A DNA stretch of 64,000 nt from Chloroflexota bacterium (lineage in GTDB: Bacteria; Chloroflexota; UBA11872; VXOZ01). This document shows, piece after piece, positions 3,748 to 27,675 of the stretch. Position numbers and translations under genes: made by a program. Under the pieces are notes generated by a model. That model was not told the DNA's origin. It was given only the letters and a program-made list of their open reading frames with translations, and did not search any database. Every line of letters begins with the position of its first letter. Position 1 is the first letter of the stretch. The stretch is taken from NCBI GenBank assembly GCA_028874195.1, contig JAPPLM010000007.1, positions 1 through 64,000 of the forward strand, given 5' to 3'.

Positions 3748-4199
3748 GTATCTCTCCACTTTGTGCTTGTTGGCGGGGCAACGCGCCCCACGCTATGGCT
3801 ATAACGGGCAATCAGTATCGGCAGGGACCGTCATTCCCGCGCACGCAGGAATCCATCTGCTCCCTGTTCACCCTATCTGTCGCTCTAAAGGCAAAAAGCC
3901 AGGCCTCTGGACTCCGGCATCCGCCGGAGAGACGGATCGGCCAACGTCCTTCAGTCTCCCGCCGGAAGATGAGCGGGGGACAAGCCCCCGCGCTACTACT
4001 TGTTGACGAGGCTCGACCGCACTCCCGTAAGTCTACCTACCCATAGTATACGAACCCCGCGCGGATTGAGGCGATTCTCTCTTCTTGACGCACCGCACGT
4101 GCAAGTTCATCATGATGGTGGACGTTGTGACGAATTCAATCGAACAAACCCGAACCTCGGCTTCCCCAAGAGTAACCTCGACACACATACCCCCACCTT
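3748..4199. repeat. Intergenic gap with repeats
   Basis: This is the divergent region between leuB and the RNase J gene. Repeats lie at 3830-3857 (CATTCCCGCGCACGCAGGAATCC), 3908-3936 (CTCCGGCATCCGCCGGAGAGACGGA) and 3973-3996 (GCGGGGGACAAGCCCCCGC). The remaining 200 bases before RNase J have no convincing promoter by eye. Confidence 0.7.
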
Positions 4200-20106: not shown

Positions 20107-20913
20107 ATGGACACACCGCAAGAGTCAAATCAACCGCAAATTCCAAATCCACCTCCTGTCGCGGACACACAAGGGAAGGCTGTCCACGACGGGCCGATCC
20201 TCGAGCTCTCCGGCATTTCCGTACATTACGGAGCGGTGATCGCTCTGAATGACGTCTCGCTGGGCGTGCGCAGAGGCGAGGTGGTGGCCGTGATGGGTCC
20301 CAACGGCGCCGGCAAGTCCACGGTGCTCAAAGCCATCATGGGGTTGGCGCCCGTCGTCGCCGGAGAAGTCTTCTGGCGCAAGGCGCCCTTGGCCGCCGCC
20401 ACCCACGAGATCGTGAAGGAAGGCATCGCGTTCGTGCCGCAGGGTAGGCGCGTCTTCACCCACCTCACCATCGAAGAGAACCTGGAGATGGGCTGCTTGC
20501 ACCTGAAAGACAAAGCGGAGAAGCAGCGCCGCCTCGACGGCGTGATGCGCATCTTCCCCATCCTCCAGAGCAAACGCGGCGACCTGGCCAGCGCAATGTC
20601 CGGCGGGCAGCAACAGATGCTTGCCCTGGGCCGGGGCCTCATGGCCGCTCCCGACGTGCTCCTGCTCGATGAACCGACCCTGGGCCTCGCGCCCATTGTG
20701 GTGAAAGAGGTCTTCGACAAGGTCTCCGAGATCAGCGACGAACTCAAGACGACCATCATGATCGTCGAGCACAACATCAAAGGTGTGCTCGACATCGTCG
20801 ACCGCGCCCACGTCCTCGACAAAGGCCGCATCGTCTTCACCGGCACCCCCAACGCCATCCGCTCCTCCGACATCCTCACCCACGTCTTCCTCGGCAAGTC
20901 CGGCGCGAGCTAG
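20107..20913 (+). CDS. livF: ABC transporter ATPase, LivF family
   Basis: This is the second ATPase of the importer, 268 residues. Walker A is GPNGAGKST, the signature is MSGGQQQMLALGRGLMA, and Walker B is LLLDEPTLGLAP. LivF-type features include GIAFVPQGRRVFTHLTIEEN. About 35 polar residues precede the ATPase core, and the ribosome binding site for the ATG at 20107 is weak, so the true start could lie a little downstream. It is separated from livG by a repeat-bearing gap of 285 bases but clearly belongs to the same system. Confidence 0.92.
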   Translation: MDTPQESNQPQIPNPPPVADTQGKAVHDGPILELSGISVHYGAVIALNDVSLGVRRGEVVAVMGPNGAGKSTVLKAIMGLAPVVAGEVFWRKAPLAAATHEIVKEGIAFVPQGRRVFTHLTIEENLEMGCLHLKDKAEKQRRLDGVMRIFPILQSKRGDLASAMSGGQQQMLALGRGLMAAPDVLLLDEPTLGLAPIVVKEVFDKVSEISDELKTTIMIVEHNIKGVLDIVDRAHVLDKGRIVFTGTPNAIRSSDILTHVFLGKSGAS

Positions 20914-20996: not shown

Positions 20997-21290
20997 GTGC
21001 GCATAATCGCCAAGAGAACCCTTAGGGAATTCTGGGAACGTCACTCTAATGCTGAGGGTCCTTTACGTGCTTGGTACGATAGGGTCAAAAAGCAAGATTG
21101 GGATACGCCAGCGAGAGTGAAGGAGCATTTCCCAGACGCCAGCATTCTTCCCAACTATCGCGTTGTCTTTAGGATCAAACACAACGACTATCGGCTGGTG
21201 GTAAGAGTATTCTATCCCGGGCGCGCGGTGTACATACGGTTTGTCGGCACCCATGCCGAATACAACCGCATACACGCAGAGGAAGTATAG
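20997..21290 (+). CDS. higB: HigB-family mRNA interferase toxin
   Basis: This 97-residue protein resembles the HigB toxin family (HigB_toxin, RelE-like fold), ribosome-dependent or free mRNA endonucleases. The whole length matches the pattern: RTLREFWERHSNAEGPLRAW, then VKEHFPDASILPNYRVVF, then NDYRLVVRVFY and the C-terminal VYIRFVGTHAEYNRIHA. The GTG start at 20997 is followed directly by homology. The gene comes first in the pair and the antitoxin-like gene starts three bases after its stop, the toxin-first order typical of HigBA. Confidence 0.88.
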   Translation: MRIIAKRTLREFWERHSNAEGPLRAWYDRVKKQDWDTPARVKEHFPDASILPNYRVVFRIKHNDYRLVVRVFYPGRAVYIRFVGTHAEYNRIHAEEV

Positions 21291-21292
21291 CG

Positions 21293-21583
21293 ATGACGAG
21301 AATCGAGCAAATCCGCAACGAGGCTGAATACGATGCAGCCTTGGCCCGGATCTCCGAACTCATGGACGCCCTGTCCGGACCGCAAGGGCAAGTGACGGAT
21401 GAAAGTCATCCCGACAGAGTCGAATTGGAGTTCTTAGTCAGTAAAGTCGAGCTATACGAGGACGAACACTACCCAATCGACCCTCCCAGCCTCAGTGCGG
21501 CTATCGAATTCCATATAGACCAAACCGGCACGATCCCGACCGACCTGGATCACCTGACCGAAAAGCACGACAAGGTCTCCTAG
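21293..21583 (+). CDS. higA: HigA-like antitoxin, apparently lacking its HTH
   Basis: This 96-residue protein corresponds to the N-terminal part of HigA-family antitoxins: an IRNEAEYDAALARISELMDA helix, an ELEFLVSKVELYEDEHYPI block, then SLSAAIEFHIDQTG. In full-length HigA this leads into a Cro-type HTH with an (R/K)-x-x-V-S-E-V-L recognition helix. Here the frame instead ends TDLDHLTEKHDKVS followed by TAG. No continuation of the HTH is obvious in the next bases in any frame. It may still neutralise HigB by protein contact but should be poor at DNA autoregulation. Confidence 0.75.
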   Translation: MTRIEQIRNEAEYDAALARISELMDALSGPQGQVTDESHPDRVELEFLVSKVELYEDEHYPIDPPSLSAAIEFHIDQTGTIPTDLDHLTEKHDKVS

Positions 21584-21632: not shown

Positions 21633-23027
21633 ATGAGCTTAGATCCCAACTTTGCGAACAGAACTATCTGGACGGGGGATAACCTCGACATTCTCCGGGG
21701 GTTGAATAGCAATTGCGTTGACCTCATCTACCTTGATCCGCCTTTCAACTCCAACCGCAATTACGCCGCGCCGGTAGGTTCCAAAGCCGCGGGTGCGGCG
21801 TTCAAGGACACGTGGACACTTTCCGATCTCGACGTGGCTTGGATGGGTCTCATTGCCGACGAGCAACCCGCTGTGTACAGGGTCATTGAGACTGCCGGCC
21901 TAACGCACGGCAAGGGAATGCAGTCTTATCTGTGCATGATGGCCGTGCGTCTGCTGGAAATGAAGCGCGTTCTGAAAGAGAGCGGCAGCGTCTACCTCCA
22001 CTGTGACTCCACAGCAAGTCACTACTTGAAACTGCTGATGGATGCGGTTTTTGGGTCAGGACAGTTTCAGAATCACGTCACTTGGCGGCGAACCACCGCG
22101 CACAGCGATTCCGTGCGCTATGGTTCCAACGCTGACCACCTGCTTTACTACACCAATGGCGAGCAGTGGACATGGAATCCCCAGTATCAGGACTATGACG
22201 AAAAGTACAAGGCAAGATTCCGGCGCAAAGACCCTGATGGGCGGTTGTGGTCGGACGATAACATCACAGCTAAGGGTTTGAGCGGTGGCGGGTACGAGTA
22301 TGAGTACAAGGGGGTATCGTCGCTTTGGCGAGTTCCCCTGAAGACAATGGAACGGCTTGATGCCGAGGGCCGACTACACTTTACGAGTAAGGGTGGCATC
22401 AGACTCAAGAGATACTTGGACGAAATGCAGGGGCGGGCGGTGCAAGCCTTGTGGGATGACATTGACGCCATCAACTCCCAGGCTAGAGAACGCACGGGCT
22501 ATCCCACTCAGAAGCCAATCGCACTGCTGGAACGGATCATCAAGGCCAGCTCAAACGAGGGTGACGTAGTGCTCGACCCGTTCGCGGGTTGCGCTACTGC
22601 TTGCGTTGCCGCCGAATCGCTGGGGCGCAAGTGGATTGGCATAGACCTGTCCCCGAAAGCGGTTGAGCTTGTAAGACTTCGGCTTGCAGAATCGATGGGC
22701 GGTCTCTTTCACGACCGGCTGGTTACGTCGCGTTCCGATATCCCAAAACGCACGGACATCGACGCGCCAATTCACTATCGTCAGAACAAGCATGTTCTAT
22801 TCGGACAGCAAGAAGGGCAGTGCAACGGCTGCAAGATGGAGTTTCCGTTCAAGGTCCTTGAAGTTGACCACGTCCTTCCACGCTCGCGCGGCGGCACGGA
22901 CCACTTGGACAACCTCCAATTGCTGTGCAGTCACTGCAACCGCACGAAAGGCGATAGGCCTCAAGAGTATTTGATCAACGAATTGAGCAAAATGCGTAGT
23001 GCGGGTAGATTTGTCCAAAACGAATAA
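21633..23027 (+). CDS. DNA methyltransferase with C-terminal HNH nuclease domain
   Basis: This 464-residue fusion has two parts. Residues 1 to about 360 are an amino-methyltransferase (N6-adenine or N4-cytosine): the catalytic DPPF is at 35-38 and the AdoMet-binding DPFAGCATA starts at D315, so motif IV precedes motif I (beta-class order), with a target-recognition region between. Residues about 385-464 are an HNH nuclease fold: zinc knuckles C397-C400 and C432-C435 surround VDHVLPRSRGG (D412-H413) and end CNRTKGDR. Such fusion could make a single-chain modification and cleavage enzyme. It heads an apparent three-gene operon; the next start is 12 bases after the stop. Base use is more AT-rich than the housekeeping genes. 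Confidence 0.85.
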   Translation: MSLDPNFANRTIWTGDNLDILRGLNSNCVDLIYLDPPFNSNRNYAAPVGSKAAGAAFKDTWTLSDLDVAWMGLIADEQPAVYRVIETAGLTHGKGMQSYLCMMAVRLLEMKRVLKESGSVYLHCDSTASHYLKLLMDAVFGSGQFQNHVTWRRTTAHSDSVRYGSNADHLLYYTNGEQWTWNPQYQDYDEKYKARFRRKDPDGRLWSDDNITAKGLSGGGYEYEYKGVSSLWRVPLKTMERLDAEGRLHFTSKGGIRLKRYLDEMQGRAVQALWDDIDAINSQARERTGYPTQKPIALLERIIKASSNEGDVVLDPFAGCATACVAAESLGRKWIGIDLSPKAVELVRLRLAESMGGLFHDRLVTSRSDIPKRTDIDAPIHYRQNKHVLFGQQEGQCNGCKMEFPFKVLEVDHVLPRSRGGTDHLDNLQLLCSHCNRTKGDRPQEYLINELSKMRSAGRFVQNE

Positions 23028-23039
23028 GGAAGTGCGTCC

Positions 23040-23741
23040 TTGCCGACCACGAACCTCACATCCCAGCAAAAGAGGGTCTATGACTGGCTACACGAAGAAC
23101 GAGACTTGCCAGTGTTCGCCGAGGCCTATGTAGCGGCTGTCCACCTTCTGAACGTCAAGACGCCAGGTTACATCACGCTTGTCGCACATGTAGGCAGAGA
23201 CTTTGCTAACGTTCTGGCACGGACTGTCTCAGGCACTGATGGAGGTCGAGTGCAATACGTGCAACTCACTGAATCCATAAAGAGTGAATGGAAAGACGAG
23301 TGGCGAGGCCGCGGCATCACTTCTAGCGAAGGCGGTTTTGGAGAAGGTGACCATTCGGAAGGGCACTTGGTTACTTACGAAGCCTGCGCGAAGGTGAGAG
23401 AGTTGCTTGAGGAACATGAGGCCGGTACCGAAAGGAGCAACCTAGCAAACGACCTGGTCTTCAGCACCTTCTTGGACTATGACGACATTGACAGAATCCC
23501 TAAGAATCTAGTGGACGAATGGAAAATAGCGAGAAGGTGGTTCCTGGCGCACGCTCATTGTCGAGAAGGCTGCTTTTCAGTAGATGAACAACGCGAGATC
23601 GAGCAGCACTTTCAAACGCTTCATTCGATGTTATACGTTGCAGCAAGCAGCGCATACGAGCGACTAAAGGGGATCGATGACATCCTGGAAGAAACCAACA
23701 AGAGAGATGGTAGAGAGAGGCCTAGGGTCGGCAAAGAATGA
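23040..23741 (+). CDS. Unrecognised 233-aa protein in methyltransferase operon
   Basis: I do not recognise this family. It is a soluble, charged protein with a TTG start 12 bases after the methyltransferase stop. Its stop lies 62 bases inside the next open frame, so the three genes are probably co-transcribed and coupled. The C-terminal half is helical, and around residues 160-175 it reads WKIARRWFLAHAH, which contains R166 and H171 spaced as R-x4-H, the spacing of HEPN ribonucleases; the polar residue usually following that Arg is missing, so this is only suggestive. A Gly-rich loop (SSEGGFGEGDHSEG) sits near residue 100. There is no signal peptide. Confidence 0.6.
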   Translation: MPTTNLTSQQKRVYDWLHEERDLPVFAEAYVAAVHLLNVKTPGYITLVAHVGRDFANVLARTVSGTDGGRVQYVQLTESIKSEWKDEWRGRGITSSEGGFGEGDHSEGHLVTYEACAKVRELLEEHEAGTERSNLANDLVFSTFLDYDDIDRIPKNLVDEWKIARRWFLAHAHCREGCFSVDEQREIEQHFQTLHSMLYVAASSAYERLKGIDDILEETNKRDGRERPRVGKE

Positions 23742-26580
23742 AACCGACCGCCGGTACTTCTTCTCTCGCCTCAAGAACCCACTATGGCTCCAACCCTTAG
23801 TGGAGCGCGGCTATTTTGCATCTCCCCCGCAGGTACTCCACCTGCCGAACGGCCACATGCAGTTCCCGTTTTGGCCGGAACTTCAATATCTAAAGAACGT
23901 CTGTAGGCTAGTGCCGGAAGAGGTTGTCAGCATACTGGCCGGCCTTCCCAGCGTTGACAACCCGCATGTCTATGTTGAACTCTTGGAGATTGCAATAGAC
24001 CTCCCAGGCAGTCACTCCGCAAAGCTGAAGGGCAAGATGCTCGAGTACGCAGGGCTAAGTTTTCAGACCATGGCTCACGGATATCCAAGCCTGCTGGCGC
24101 ATTGGGCTAAGGAAAGCGAAACTCTTGCAGCACTAGAACTTGCTGAAGTGCTGATCCAGTTCAAGCCCGACCCCAAAGCAAGAGAAAAGCGAAGGCAATT
24201 TAGGAAGAATCCAAGTGACTTTACGAGCTTCCTCGATCCCTCCCCTCGATTTGAGAAATGGGATTACCGTGAGATTCTCAATTCGGGTGTTCGTCCTCTT
24301 GCCGAAATAGAGCCCTACGGGACGGCTTGCATACTCATCGATGCCGTCGCAGCGATGATTGACCTAGGAGTGCATCCAGAACAACTAGATACAATTGGCG
24401 ATAGAGATACTTCCGAATTCTGGTGCAGACGGCTTAACAGGGCAAGTACCGACTATGGCGATAATAAGGAGGATCTTGCCAATGCCCTGACTTTCGCTTG
24501 CGAGCAGGTTTACGAAAAGGCTCCAGCTTCTATCGCAGACCTTGACGAGCATCTCCGCAAGCAGCGCTGGAAGATCTTCAAGCGCCTACGCCAACACCTT
24601 TTTGCGCTCAATCCTAGTGAAGTAACAAAACCATGGATTCGGAACCTAGTCCTAGAACATCAAGATTATGGTCGTACAGAGCATCACTACGAGTTCCAAA
24701 AGATGGTGCGAAGCGCTTGCGCGCGCTTTGGAGAAGAATTACTCACTAAACAGGAGTGGAGTTTTATTTTCGATACTATTCTGGATGGTCCGCCGAAGGA
24801 GGAGTTCCTGAAGTTGCATGGTGAGAAGTTCACTGAAGAAAAGTTCGAGCTTCGTCAGTTGCGCTTCCATCGCATGCAGTTACGGCTCTTCGAAGATGTG
24901 CTCTTTGGTGACTATCTGGCTCGCTTCCAAGAAGCGGAGATGCAAGCCGATGAGCAGATATCAAATGATGACTACCTGCCATTTGGTGATGCTGTAATCG
25001 GATTCATGTCAGCTAGAAGTCCCAAGCCACCCGAACAGCTTGCCACCATGGGAGATGCGGACATACTGGGATTCATCAACGAGTGGGATGCAGAACACTA
25101 CGACGATGACGATCCGTTGGTAGAGGTAATTATCGAAGCGCTCGCAAAGGCATTTCAAGAGTTCTTCACAGATTCGGTGCTCCCTAACGCTGATAGATTC
25201 CAGTTCTGGATTGAGAACCGCAGAGAGATAGCGCGGCCCATCTATGTGAGAGCAATTGTAGATGGGATGAAAGATGCCATTGCGGGTAGGAACTTTGAAA
25301 GACTAGAGGAGTCACTGGAATTCTGCGAGTGGGTGCTTTCACATCCCGATCAAGAGCGCGAGACCGATTTCGGAAACGGGGATCAGTCCAGAAACAATCC
25401 CTTGTGGGCTAGTTCGCGCCGAGCTGTTGTTGACCTCATTGGCGCATGCCTTGAGAAAGATGTCGATGTGCCGTATTCCCACCGAGAACATCTGACTAAG
25501 CTACTCGATATGCTTTGCACACAATTCGATTGGCGGCTTGACCGGAACCGGCCTGTGCTCGTGACTGGTGGCGACCAATATACCGAGGCCATCAACAATA
25601 CTCGGAGTCGCGCGTTAGAGCGCCTAATAGAACTCGGCTTTTGGATACGAAGAAGAGACGCGAACGCCGATCTTGATGCGGTTACCGCGATTCTAGAGAA
25701 GCGTTTTGCTCCAAAGACAGAGTTCGCTTTGACCCTGCCGGAGCGCGCAATCTTGGGCGCATCCTACGCCCGACTGCTGTACCTCGAAAGAGCGTGGGCC
25801 ACAGCGCATAGAACTGGCTTTTTCCCTCAGACCTCAGTTCCCTTGTGGCGGGAAGCATTTGGCAGTTTTCTGCAGTACACTCGCCCAAGTAAGCCGTCAT
25901 TTGAGGTTCTCCAGGACGACTATGACTATGCGGTTCAGCATTTGGCCGACTACCGGGGTCAGGACGACTCAGATACAGACTTCCCGGACTACCTTGCGCA
26001 ACACCTGTTCTTCTATTACCTTTGGGGTCTGATTCCACTCAGAGGTGATGCTAGTCTTCTAGAAGGCTTCTACCGGCGCACGAACGAGGATCGCAAACGC
26101 TGGTCGAACCTAATCGACCATCTTGGCCGAAAGCTCGAGAACACCAAGGAGCACTTGGATGGGGATTTGAAACGCGGCCTAGTTGAATTCTTCGGATGGC
26201 GGCTGGACGCAGGAGACGCTGAAGAGTTAGGCTATTTCGCCTCTTGGCTTAAGGCCGAATGCCTAGAAGCCGATTGGCGTTTGGACGCATTCTCTAGAGT
26301 ATTGGACGCAACCAATGGATCGACTTCCCGGGCGGTGTCGATAGCGGCAAAGGCTCTAGAGGAGATGCTCCCCGATCACACGAACAAGGTAGTCGAGTGT
26401 TTCGTTAAGCTAACGGACACGCCTCAAGACTCTACCTTTTACGTTAATGTAGAGACGGCAAAGCGCATCATACAGGCGGGTCTTCAGAGCAATGACGAAG
26501 GTGCGCAGGAGAACGCCAAGCGCGCCCGCGAAAACCTATTGCGCAGGGGTTTTTTTGATCTTCGGAATGTAGAGGATTGA
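23677..26580 (+). CDS. Unrecognised 967-aa protein, probably helical repeats
   Basis: This is a large soluble protein without a family I can name. There is no Walker A motif, protease triad signature or membrane segment. The N-terminal region (FFSRLKNPLWLQPLVERGYF, then PFWPELQYLKNV and VVSILAGLPSVDNPHVYVEL) and much of the rest read as regular amphipathic helices, consistent with a HEAT/ARM-like solenoid. Two acidic patches occur (EWDAEHYDDDDP and DYRGQDDSDTDFPDY). The ATG at 23677 overlaps the upstream gene by 65 bases; an ATG at 23707 would overlap by 35. Codon use is AT-richer than the flanks. The operon context with a methyltransferase-nuclease suggests defence, by association only. Confidence 0.7.
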   Translation: MTSWKKPTREMVERGLGSAKNETDRRYFFSRLKNPLWLQPLVERGYFASPPQVLHLPNGHMQFPFWPELQYLKNVCRLVPEEVVSILAGLPSVDNPHVYVELLEIAIDLPGSHSAKLKGKMLEYAGLSFQTMAHGYPSLLAHWAKESETLAALELAEVLIQFKPDPKAREKRRQFRKNPSDFTSFLDPSPRFEKWDYREILNSGVRPLAEIEPYGTACILIDAVAAMIDLGVHPEQLDTIGDRDTSEFWCRRLNRASTDYGDNKEDLANALTFACEQVYEKAPASIADLDEHLRKQRWKIFKRLRQHLFALNPSEVTKPWIRNLVLEHQDYGRTEHHYEFQKMVRSACARFGEELLTKQEWSFIFDTILDGPPKEEFLKLHGEKFTEEKFELRQLRFHRMQLRLFEDVLFGDYLARFQEAEMQADEQISNDDYLPFGDAVIGFMSARSPKPPEQLATMGDADILGFINEWDAEHYDDDDPLVEVIIEALAKAFQEFFTDSVLPNADRFQFWIENRREIARPIYVRAIVDGMKDAIAGRNFERLEESLEFCEWVLSHPDQERETDFGNGDQSRNNPLWASSRRAVVDLIGACLEKDVDVPYSHREHLTKLLDMLCTQFDWRLDRNRPVLVTGGDQYTEAINNTRSRALERLIELGFWIRRRDANADLDAVTAILEKRFAPKTEFALTLPERAILGASYARLLYLERAWATAHRTGFFPQTSVPLWREAFGSFLQYTRPSKPSFEVLQDDYDYAVQHLADYRGQDDSDTDFPDYLAQHLFFYYLWGLIPLRGDASLLEGFYRRTNEDRKRWSNLIDHLGRKLENTKEHLDGDLKRGLVEFFGWRLDAGDAEELGYFASWLKAECLEADWRLDAFSRVLDATNGSTSRAVSIAAKALEEMLPDHTNKVVECFVKLTDTPQDSTFYVNVETAKRIIQAGLQSNDEGAQENAKRARENLLRRGFFDLRNVED

Positions 26581-26592
26581 CGGCAATGCGCC

Positions 26593-27675
26593 CTAGTTGA
26601 TCACGATGCCCTCTTGGCCGGCGATGCTGATCTGTTGGGCCACTGCGCCGGCGACTTCGCGGTAGATGGCGGCTAGGGATGAGTCGGGCTCGGTGGCGGT
26701 GATGGGTTTGCCGCTATCGCCGCCCTCGCGGATGGCGACGTTCAGGGGCACTTCGCCGAGGAAGGGCACGCCCATGGCTTCCGCCGCTTGGCGCGCGCCG
26801 CCGTGGCTGAAGATCTCCGTGCGCTCGTCGCAGTGGGGGCAGAGGAAGTAGCTCATGTTCTCCACGATGCCCAGGATCGGCACGCGCAGTTGCTGGAACA
26901 TGCCGATGGCTTTGCGGGCATCGGACAGAGCTACGTCCTGCGGCGTGCAGACGATTACGGCCCCCGCGCCGGGGATAGATTGCGCCAGGCTGAGGGGCGC
27001 GTCGCCGGTGCCGGGCGGCAGGTCGACCACCAGGTAGTCGCGCTCGCCCCAGTGCACGTCGCCGAGGAACTGCGTGAGCAAGCGGTGCACGATAGGCCCG
27101 CGCCAGATCATAGCCTGTTCCGGCTTGATGACGAATCCCGCAGACATGAGCGTAATCCCGTACGCCTCGGCGGGAATCACCTTATTGCCCGCGCCGCGCA
27201 GTTGCGCCTGCGACCCCATCATCATGGGGATATTCGGGCCGTAGACGTCGGCATCGAGCAGTCCCACTTCCGCGCCGGACTGCGCCAAGGCGATGGCGAG
27301 ATTCACGGCGGTGGTGGACTTGCCCACGCCGCCCTTGCCGCTGGCAACGAAGAGCACATTCTTCACGTCCATCAGGACTTCCGCCGCTTCCGGCGCCATG
27401 CGCTTGGCCACTTCCGCGGTTGTATCAATCTCCACGGCCTGCACGCCGGGCACCGCGAGCAGCGCTTTGCGGCACTCGTTCTCCAGGTGCTCTTTCATCG
27501 GGCAGGCGGGTGTAGTCAGCACGAGTTGAAACGCCGCCGTGCCTTTCTCGAACGTCATTTCCCGCACCATGTTCAGCGTGACGATATCCTTGTGCAGGTC
27601 GGGGTCCTGCACCACCCGAAGCGCGTTTACTAGATCGTCAGTCTGCGGAGTTCCATTCACTGCCATGCCGTACAA
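26593..27675 (-). CDS. mrp: Mrp/ApbC-type Fe-S cluster carrier ATPase
   Basis: This 360-residue protein combines an N-terminal DUF59/MIP18-like domain (residues about 8-85, DLVNALRVVQDPDLHKDIV) with a MinD/ParA-type P-loop ATPase: ASGKGGVGKSTTAVNLA (deviant Walker A) at about 110, LLDADVYGPNIPMMMG, and YLVVDLPPGTGDAPL. The C-terminal C-P-H-C (YFLCPHCDERTEIF) is the cluster-bridging CxxC. It carries Fe-S clusters to apoproteins in the cytoplasm. It converges on the 967-aa gene across only 12 bases, which marks the border of the accessory block. Confidence 0.93.
   Translation of the reverse strand: MYGMAVNGTPQTDDLVNALRVVQDPDLHKDIVTLNMVREMTFEKGTAAFQLVLTTPACPMKEHLENECRKALLAVPGVQAVEIDTTAEVAKRMAPEAAEVLMDVKNVLFVASGKGGVGKSTTAVNLAIALAQSGAEVGLLDADVYGPNIPMMMGSQAQLRGAGNKVIPAEAYGITLMSAGFVIKPEQAMIWRGPIVHRLLTQFLGDVHWGERDYLVVDLPPGTGDAPLSLAQSIPGAGAVIVCTPQDVALSDARKAIGMFQQLRVPILGIVENMSYFLCPHCDERTEIFSHGGARQAAEAMGVPFLGEVPLNVAIREGGDSGKPITATEPDSSLAAIYREVAGAVAQQISIAGQEGIVIN

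Follow-up and report, generated by a model that had tools for sequence, protein, structure and literature searches.

The window analysed here, 64,000 nucleotides of contig JAPPLM010000007.1 from a Chloroflexota bacterium, contains three consecutive genes on one strand between a HigB/HigA-like pair and the convergent gene mrp. The question that they raise is whether a methyltransferase-HNH fusion and two unrecognized proteins together form a single modification-linked defence system, as a preliminary description had proposed. The features to which we refer are the following, with all positions being those of the window.

20107..20913, + strand: left flank, livF-like ABC transporter gene, also conserved in four further genomes of this genus
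20997..21290, + strand: HigB-like toxin, at this site an accessory unit of its own (PF09907, 1.5e-27; PADLOC PD-Lambda-2_A, 4e-37)
21293..21583, + strand: small HigB partner (PD-Lambda-2_B, first 89 of 402 positions only)
21633..23027, + strand: gene 1, methyltransferase-HNH, 464 aa; HNH domain C-terminal, residues about 397-451
22043..22478 (approximate), + strand: swapped target-recognition region of gene 1, lacking DNA alignment to the L002 orthologue, with alignable DNA on both sides
23040..23741, + strand: gene 2, p233, putative effector, 233 aa
23677..26580, + strand: gene 3, p967, putative sensor, 967 aa
23677..23741, + strand: overlap of genes 2 and 3, 65 bases
26593..27675, - strand: right flank, mrp, 93-96% identical within the genus

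The three open reading frames lie exactly where they had been placed, with 12 bases between genes 1 and 2, the expected overlap between genes 2 and 3 and a further 12 bases between the end of gene 3 and mrp, and the operon is indeed AT-richer than its surroundings (52.7% GC vs about 60% in each flank). Gene 2 starts at a TTG codon, with AAGGAAG just 5' of it. We do not regard the reading frames as products of chance, because all three are conserved at the same site in a second genome of the genus (61-77% protein identity) and genes 2 and 3 have counterparts in Poribacteria (44-51% identity). The gene 2/gene 3 overlap is 29 bases in 13 of 13 close relatives, and its greater length is peculiar to the window genome because the stop codon of gene 2 falls later there.

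The explanation that we favour, and consider reasonably probable, is that genes 2 and 3 are a two-component abortive-infection module, made up of a DSR1-type sensor and a trans-acting predicted-nuclease effector, that often keeps company with restriction enzymes. Among 400 Chloroflexota genomes the sensor model matches 10 and the p233 model 9, and in each of the nine that carry p233 its gene and that of the sensor are either overlapping or fused, an obligate linkage; the tenth sensor has a STAND-like N terminus. The distance matrices of p233 and sensor also agree (Mantel r 0.83, n=14 close pairs, 0/5000 permutations). Genes 2 and 3 make up the functional unit; the modification enzyme often accompanies it and can be exchanged. 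At L030, L037, L072, L073, L078 and L089 neither a methyltransferase nor a restriction gene lies within about 5 kb of the pair, and homologues without a methyltransferase neighbour had been named in advance as a refuting outcome. The earlier notion of one modification-linked unit of three genes is thus not supported, while its picture of a defence operon in which the large protein resembles a sensor and the small one an effector is. Viral contig scans and phage records yielded no relatives, and a plasmid search gave no plasmid with p233.

Genes 2 and 3 have no family of credible score in Pfam or NCBIfam. In a PADLOC scan, a check that had been suggested at the outset, residues 442-819 of p967 match positions 728-1076 of the Dsr1 model (PDLC04166, model length 1227) at 4e-20, and the HigB/HigA-like pair matches PD-Lambda-2 models, to which we return below. 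Thus, while no named system was matched in the libraries searched, as had been anticipated, p967 does resemble the C-terminal half of DSR1; in the open literature we found nothing on PF18165, the family discussed below in connection with p233, nor a named system of this make-up. A Poribacteria homologue (L003) aligns from residues 8 to 737 with Dsr1 model positions 305-1017, that is, with the part after the SIR2 domain, and sensor homologues score 2e-16 to 6e-113 against the same model; a profile comparison with the Vibrio sensor described below gives 8e-7. The AlphaFold2 model of p967 is all-helical with a mean pLDDT of 66.6, and Foldseek ranks HEAT solenoids highest, among them MMS19 and importin beta, with TM-scores (<0.4) that support the fold class only. 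Judged by these matches p967 is a predicted alpha-solenoid, HEAT-like and homologous to the C-terminal sensor of DSR1, without SIR2.

The DSR1 sensor, likewise helical, is homologous to p967 over most of the length of p967. DSR1 itself has a SIR2 domain, whereas no SIR2 was found in any of the three operon proteins by Pfam, PADLOC and NCBIfam profile searches and a separate p233 gene stands in the effector position. The best reading is that the pair works like DSR1 yet is no DSR1, since the SIR2 domain was searched for and is absent. In DSR2, a related single-gene system, the HEAT-repeat region binds a phage tail tube protein and the SIR2 domain is freed (PMC10973363, PMC11263360). The logic of a HEAT-repeat sensor driving an N-terminal effector would be the same here, although p967 matched Dsr1 models only and the pair has neither SIR2 nor an NAD-binding domain; the sequence match is to DSR1, whereas the example of a phage trigger comes from DSR2. 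By analogy with DSR2, we infer that p967 senses a phage protein.

The relatives of p967 carry a variety of effectors. One (L004) has an N-terminal PIN domain (PIN_12, PF16289, 6.9e-19), two (L005, L007) have N-terminal AAA ATPases, and on a Vibrio coralliilyticus plasmid (L050) a SIR2 gene and a sensor gene overlap by 8 bases, the former corresponding to Dsr1 positions 5-301 (1.6e-58) and the latter to positions 311-1213 (5.6e-113). By these alignments L050 is a split DSR1, laid out as genes 2 and 3 are, which places p233 in the effector slot. Natural fusions of p233 to the sensor are found at L031, L032, L036, L080, L082, L083, L088, L090 and L091. Within one sensor clade (44-51% identity) there are two types of p233, separate ones at 42-47% identity and fused ones at 16-21%, and we conclude therefore that effectors have been exchanged on a retained sensor. 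These observations suggest that the sensor of DSR1 is a portable module for recognition, combined with at least four types of effector (SIR2, PIN, AAA/STAND and p233) and employed in one-gene as well as two-gene layouts, so that much of the family would escape a scan for SIR2.

What kind of effector p233 might be is indicated by its more distant relatives. In an alignment of 31 family members R53 and H173 are invariant and Y30 and H50 nearly so. The window p233 itself matches no family directly at E<=1, PF18165 included, and a search of solved structures with its sequence gave nothing credible (best E 0.22). Five sensor-fused relatives, however, pass the PF18165 gathering score (26.7-34.7 bits vs 26.3) through short matches, mostly to profile positions 9-42 of 133, the region of the N-terminal motif. 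In hhalign comparisons the fused group aligns with a Chloroflexota p240 group at E 4.8e-30, and the latter aligns with the p233 clade of the window at E 1.5e-11 over 201 columns. Via these intermediates p233 can be linked, as a candidate member, to the superfamily of PF18165 (pP_pnuc_1, 'predicted pPIWI-associating nuclease'). The likeness to PF18165 and to PADLOC Aga_Nuclease lies in the N-terminal AAHxxREL motif region, in addition to the scores of the fused relatives; the partner of p233 is a DSR1-type sensor, in contrast, and not a prokaryotic Argonaute, and nuclease activity is a prediction for PF18165 as much as for p233. The AlphaFold2 model of p233, built from a three-sequence input, is all-helical, with a mean pLDDT (41.6) too low for a reliable fold. 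A HEPN assignment, considered because of the motif RRWFLAH in the window protein (R165/R166-H171, Rx4-6H), was rejected, the arginine being lost in other family members.

The favoured module would operate as follows. The solenoid p967 would serve as a sensor of the DSR1 type and p233, whose gene overlaps that of p967, as a predicted nuclease effector; given this overlap, co-translation of the two proteins is probable, as is their retention in an inactive complex. Once a phage protein binds the solenoid, p233 would be released or would assemble and then damage nucleic acid, either RNA or DNA, and the infected cell would be stopped. The methyltransferase-HNH protein would act independently of the pair, as a modification or restriction enzyme open to exchange, and would provide the first line of defence, with the pair as its back-up.

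The association with restriction operons is clearest in Poribacteria, where a type III mod or res gene lies within 5.5 kb at 14/23 sensor loci vs 0/20 control windows, the latter being hand-picked positions in four of the Poribacteria genomes with no formal random draw; since some of the restriction queries derive from the loci under test, the comparison with controls is confined to the type III count. Operons of the form mod-p233-p967-res with overlapping ends are found there (L079, L081, L091). The site that in a relative, L075, is occupied by mod, pair and res has just the pair in L072 and L089. In other loci the pair adjoins type I hsdR and hsdS together with a kinase gene (L031), or has an Eco57I-type enzyme in its vicinity (L076); a STAND-type relative of the sensor is next to a methyltransferase-helicase pair (L035). 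The window operon contains no res-like gene and is not of the type III mod plus res form. That defence genes are embedded in restriction operons is itself not new, a precedent being PrrC in the EcoprrI type Ic operon (PMC3710099). EcoprrI likewise has a second defence inside a restriction-modification operon, whereas the window has no ABC ATPase and no hsd genes, and the pair exists alone too. What the present family offers is a clear and testable case in which a second defence lies within restriction operons of several unrelated kinds. Two further arrangements were seen. At L031 (5989-10846) the fused p233-sensor gene lies directly 3' of protein kinase and YgjP-like metallopeptidase genes in a type I restriction operon, and in Poribacteria L039 (1-16103) contains three tandem units of type III mod plus pair; two of the units have truncated sensors and mods that diverge mid-gene, which gives the locus the look of a cassette in which recognition domains recombine.

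This placement invites an explanation in which the pair guards restriction, being silenced by the restriction or modification neighbour and firing when a phage anti-restriction protein disables that neighbour, much as PrrC does. We consider it rather unlikely. In favour of such a guard are the recurrent location inside type III operons, where reading frames overlap mod or res, the type I and methyltransferase-helicase neighbours and the published precedent of PrrC; against it are the six restriction-free pairs listed above, and the restriction partners are of such unrelated types that one conserved contact surface is hard to envisage. A broader version, in which a DSR1-type solenoid with an exchangeable effector is a general-purpose guard cassette that has been inserted repeatedly into type I, type III and methyltransferase-HNH operons, is functionally wired to them and fires when restriction fails, we likewise regard as doubtful; if true, it would amount to a class of two-tier immunity whose defining part is the sensor and not the effector.

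Gene 1 had been described correctly as a methyltransferase-HNH fusion. It is a beta-class amino-methyltransferase with a DPPF motif (Pfam N6_N4_Mtase, 4.3e-43) fused to an HNH domain (Pfam, 1e-13), the motif of which, read from the sequence, is complete and follows the methyltransferase part. Between the window and L002 the recognition region is 10-50% identical at the protein level, with both ends 73-100% identical, and this central region has been replaced. Central replacements of this sort are usual for an active change of specificity. The window genome contains at least three further gene 1 paralogues (66%, 65% and 75-79% identity), all away from p967, which is single-copy. Gene 1 is thus a replaceable neighbour, pairs being found without a methyltransferase and paralogues without the pair, and an obligate methyltransferase partnership was rejected on both counts. 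At L109 (100-2390) a methyltransferase-HNH copy from the same genome is followed by an unrecognized 250-aa gene without a Pfam match.

Had the three genes formed an integrated modification-dependent restriction system, the methyltransferase would mark self and p233-p967 would cut unmarked DNA, and the gene order, the tight spacing and the prevalence of beta-class methyltransferases among the companions fit such a scheme. We nevertheless judge it quite improbable: a pair that stands alone, with no methyltransferase, would be lethal to its host, a res nuclease is already present in type III loci, and the recognition region differs between the window and L002 while the pair stays. That the pair is instead a selfish addiction or toxin-antitoxin-like element hitch-hiking in restriction operons, with p967 neutralizing p233, is very improbable, since, for all that small and large overlapping genes and a nearby HigBA pair recall such elements, single-chain fusion is unusual for an addiction pair and p967 has a known phage sensor as its homologue.

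The HigB/HigA-like pair upstream is as had been described, with a HigB_toxin match and a small partner gene, and it matches the A model of PD-Lambda-2 fully and the B model partially; it may be a shortened PD-Lambda-2 relative, whereas genes 2 and 3 match none of the PD-Lambda-2 models. Across the genus, the accessory slot bounded by the livF-like gene and mrp varies in content, which fits mobile defence cargo. In G213 it holds only HigBA, in G077 a peptidase-like and a RelE-like gene, and in G033 an ADP-ribosylglycohydrolase, DarT and a UvrD-like helicase. The same slot in a sister genome (L046, 9543-13430) contains genes for an ADP-ribosylglycohydrolase, a DarT-like toxin and a UvrD-like helicase, possibly a three-gene variant of DarTG. 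Copies of the 3' ends of the bounding genes adjoin the insertions (L045, reverse complement, 3780-3995; L047, 12849-13038; L002, 11916-12206), the copied end being that of the livF-like gene in G077 and G213 and that of mrp in L002, as if incoming accessory genes brought along a repeat of the end of their target gene.
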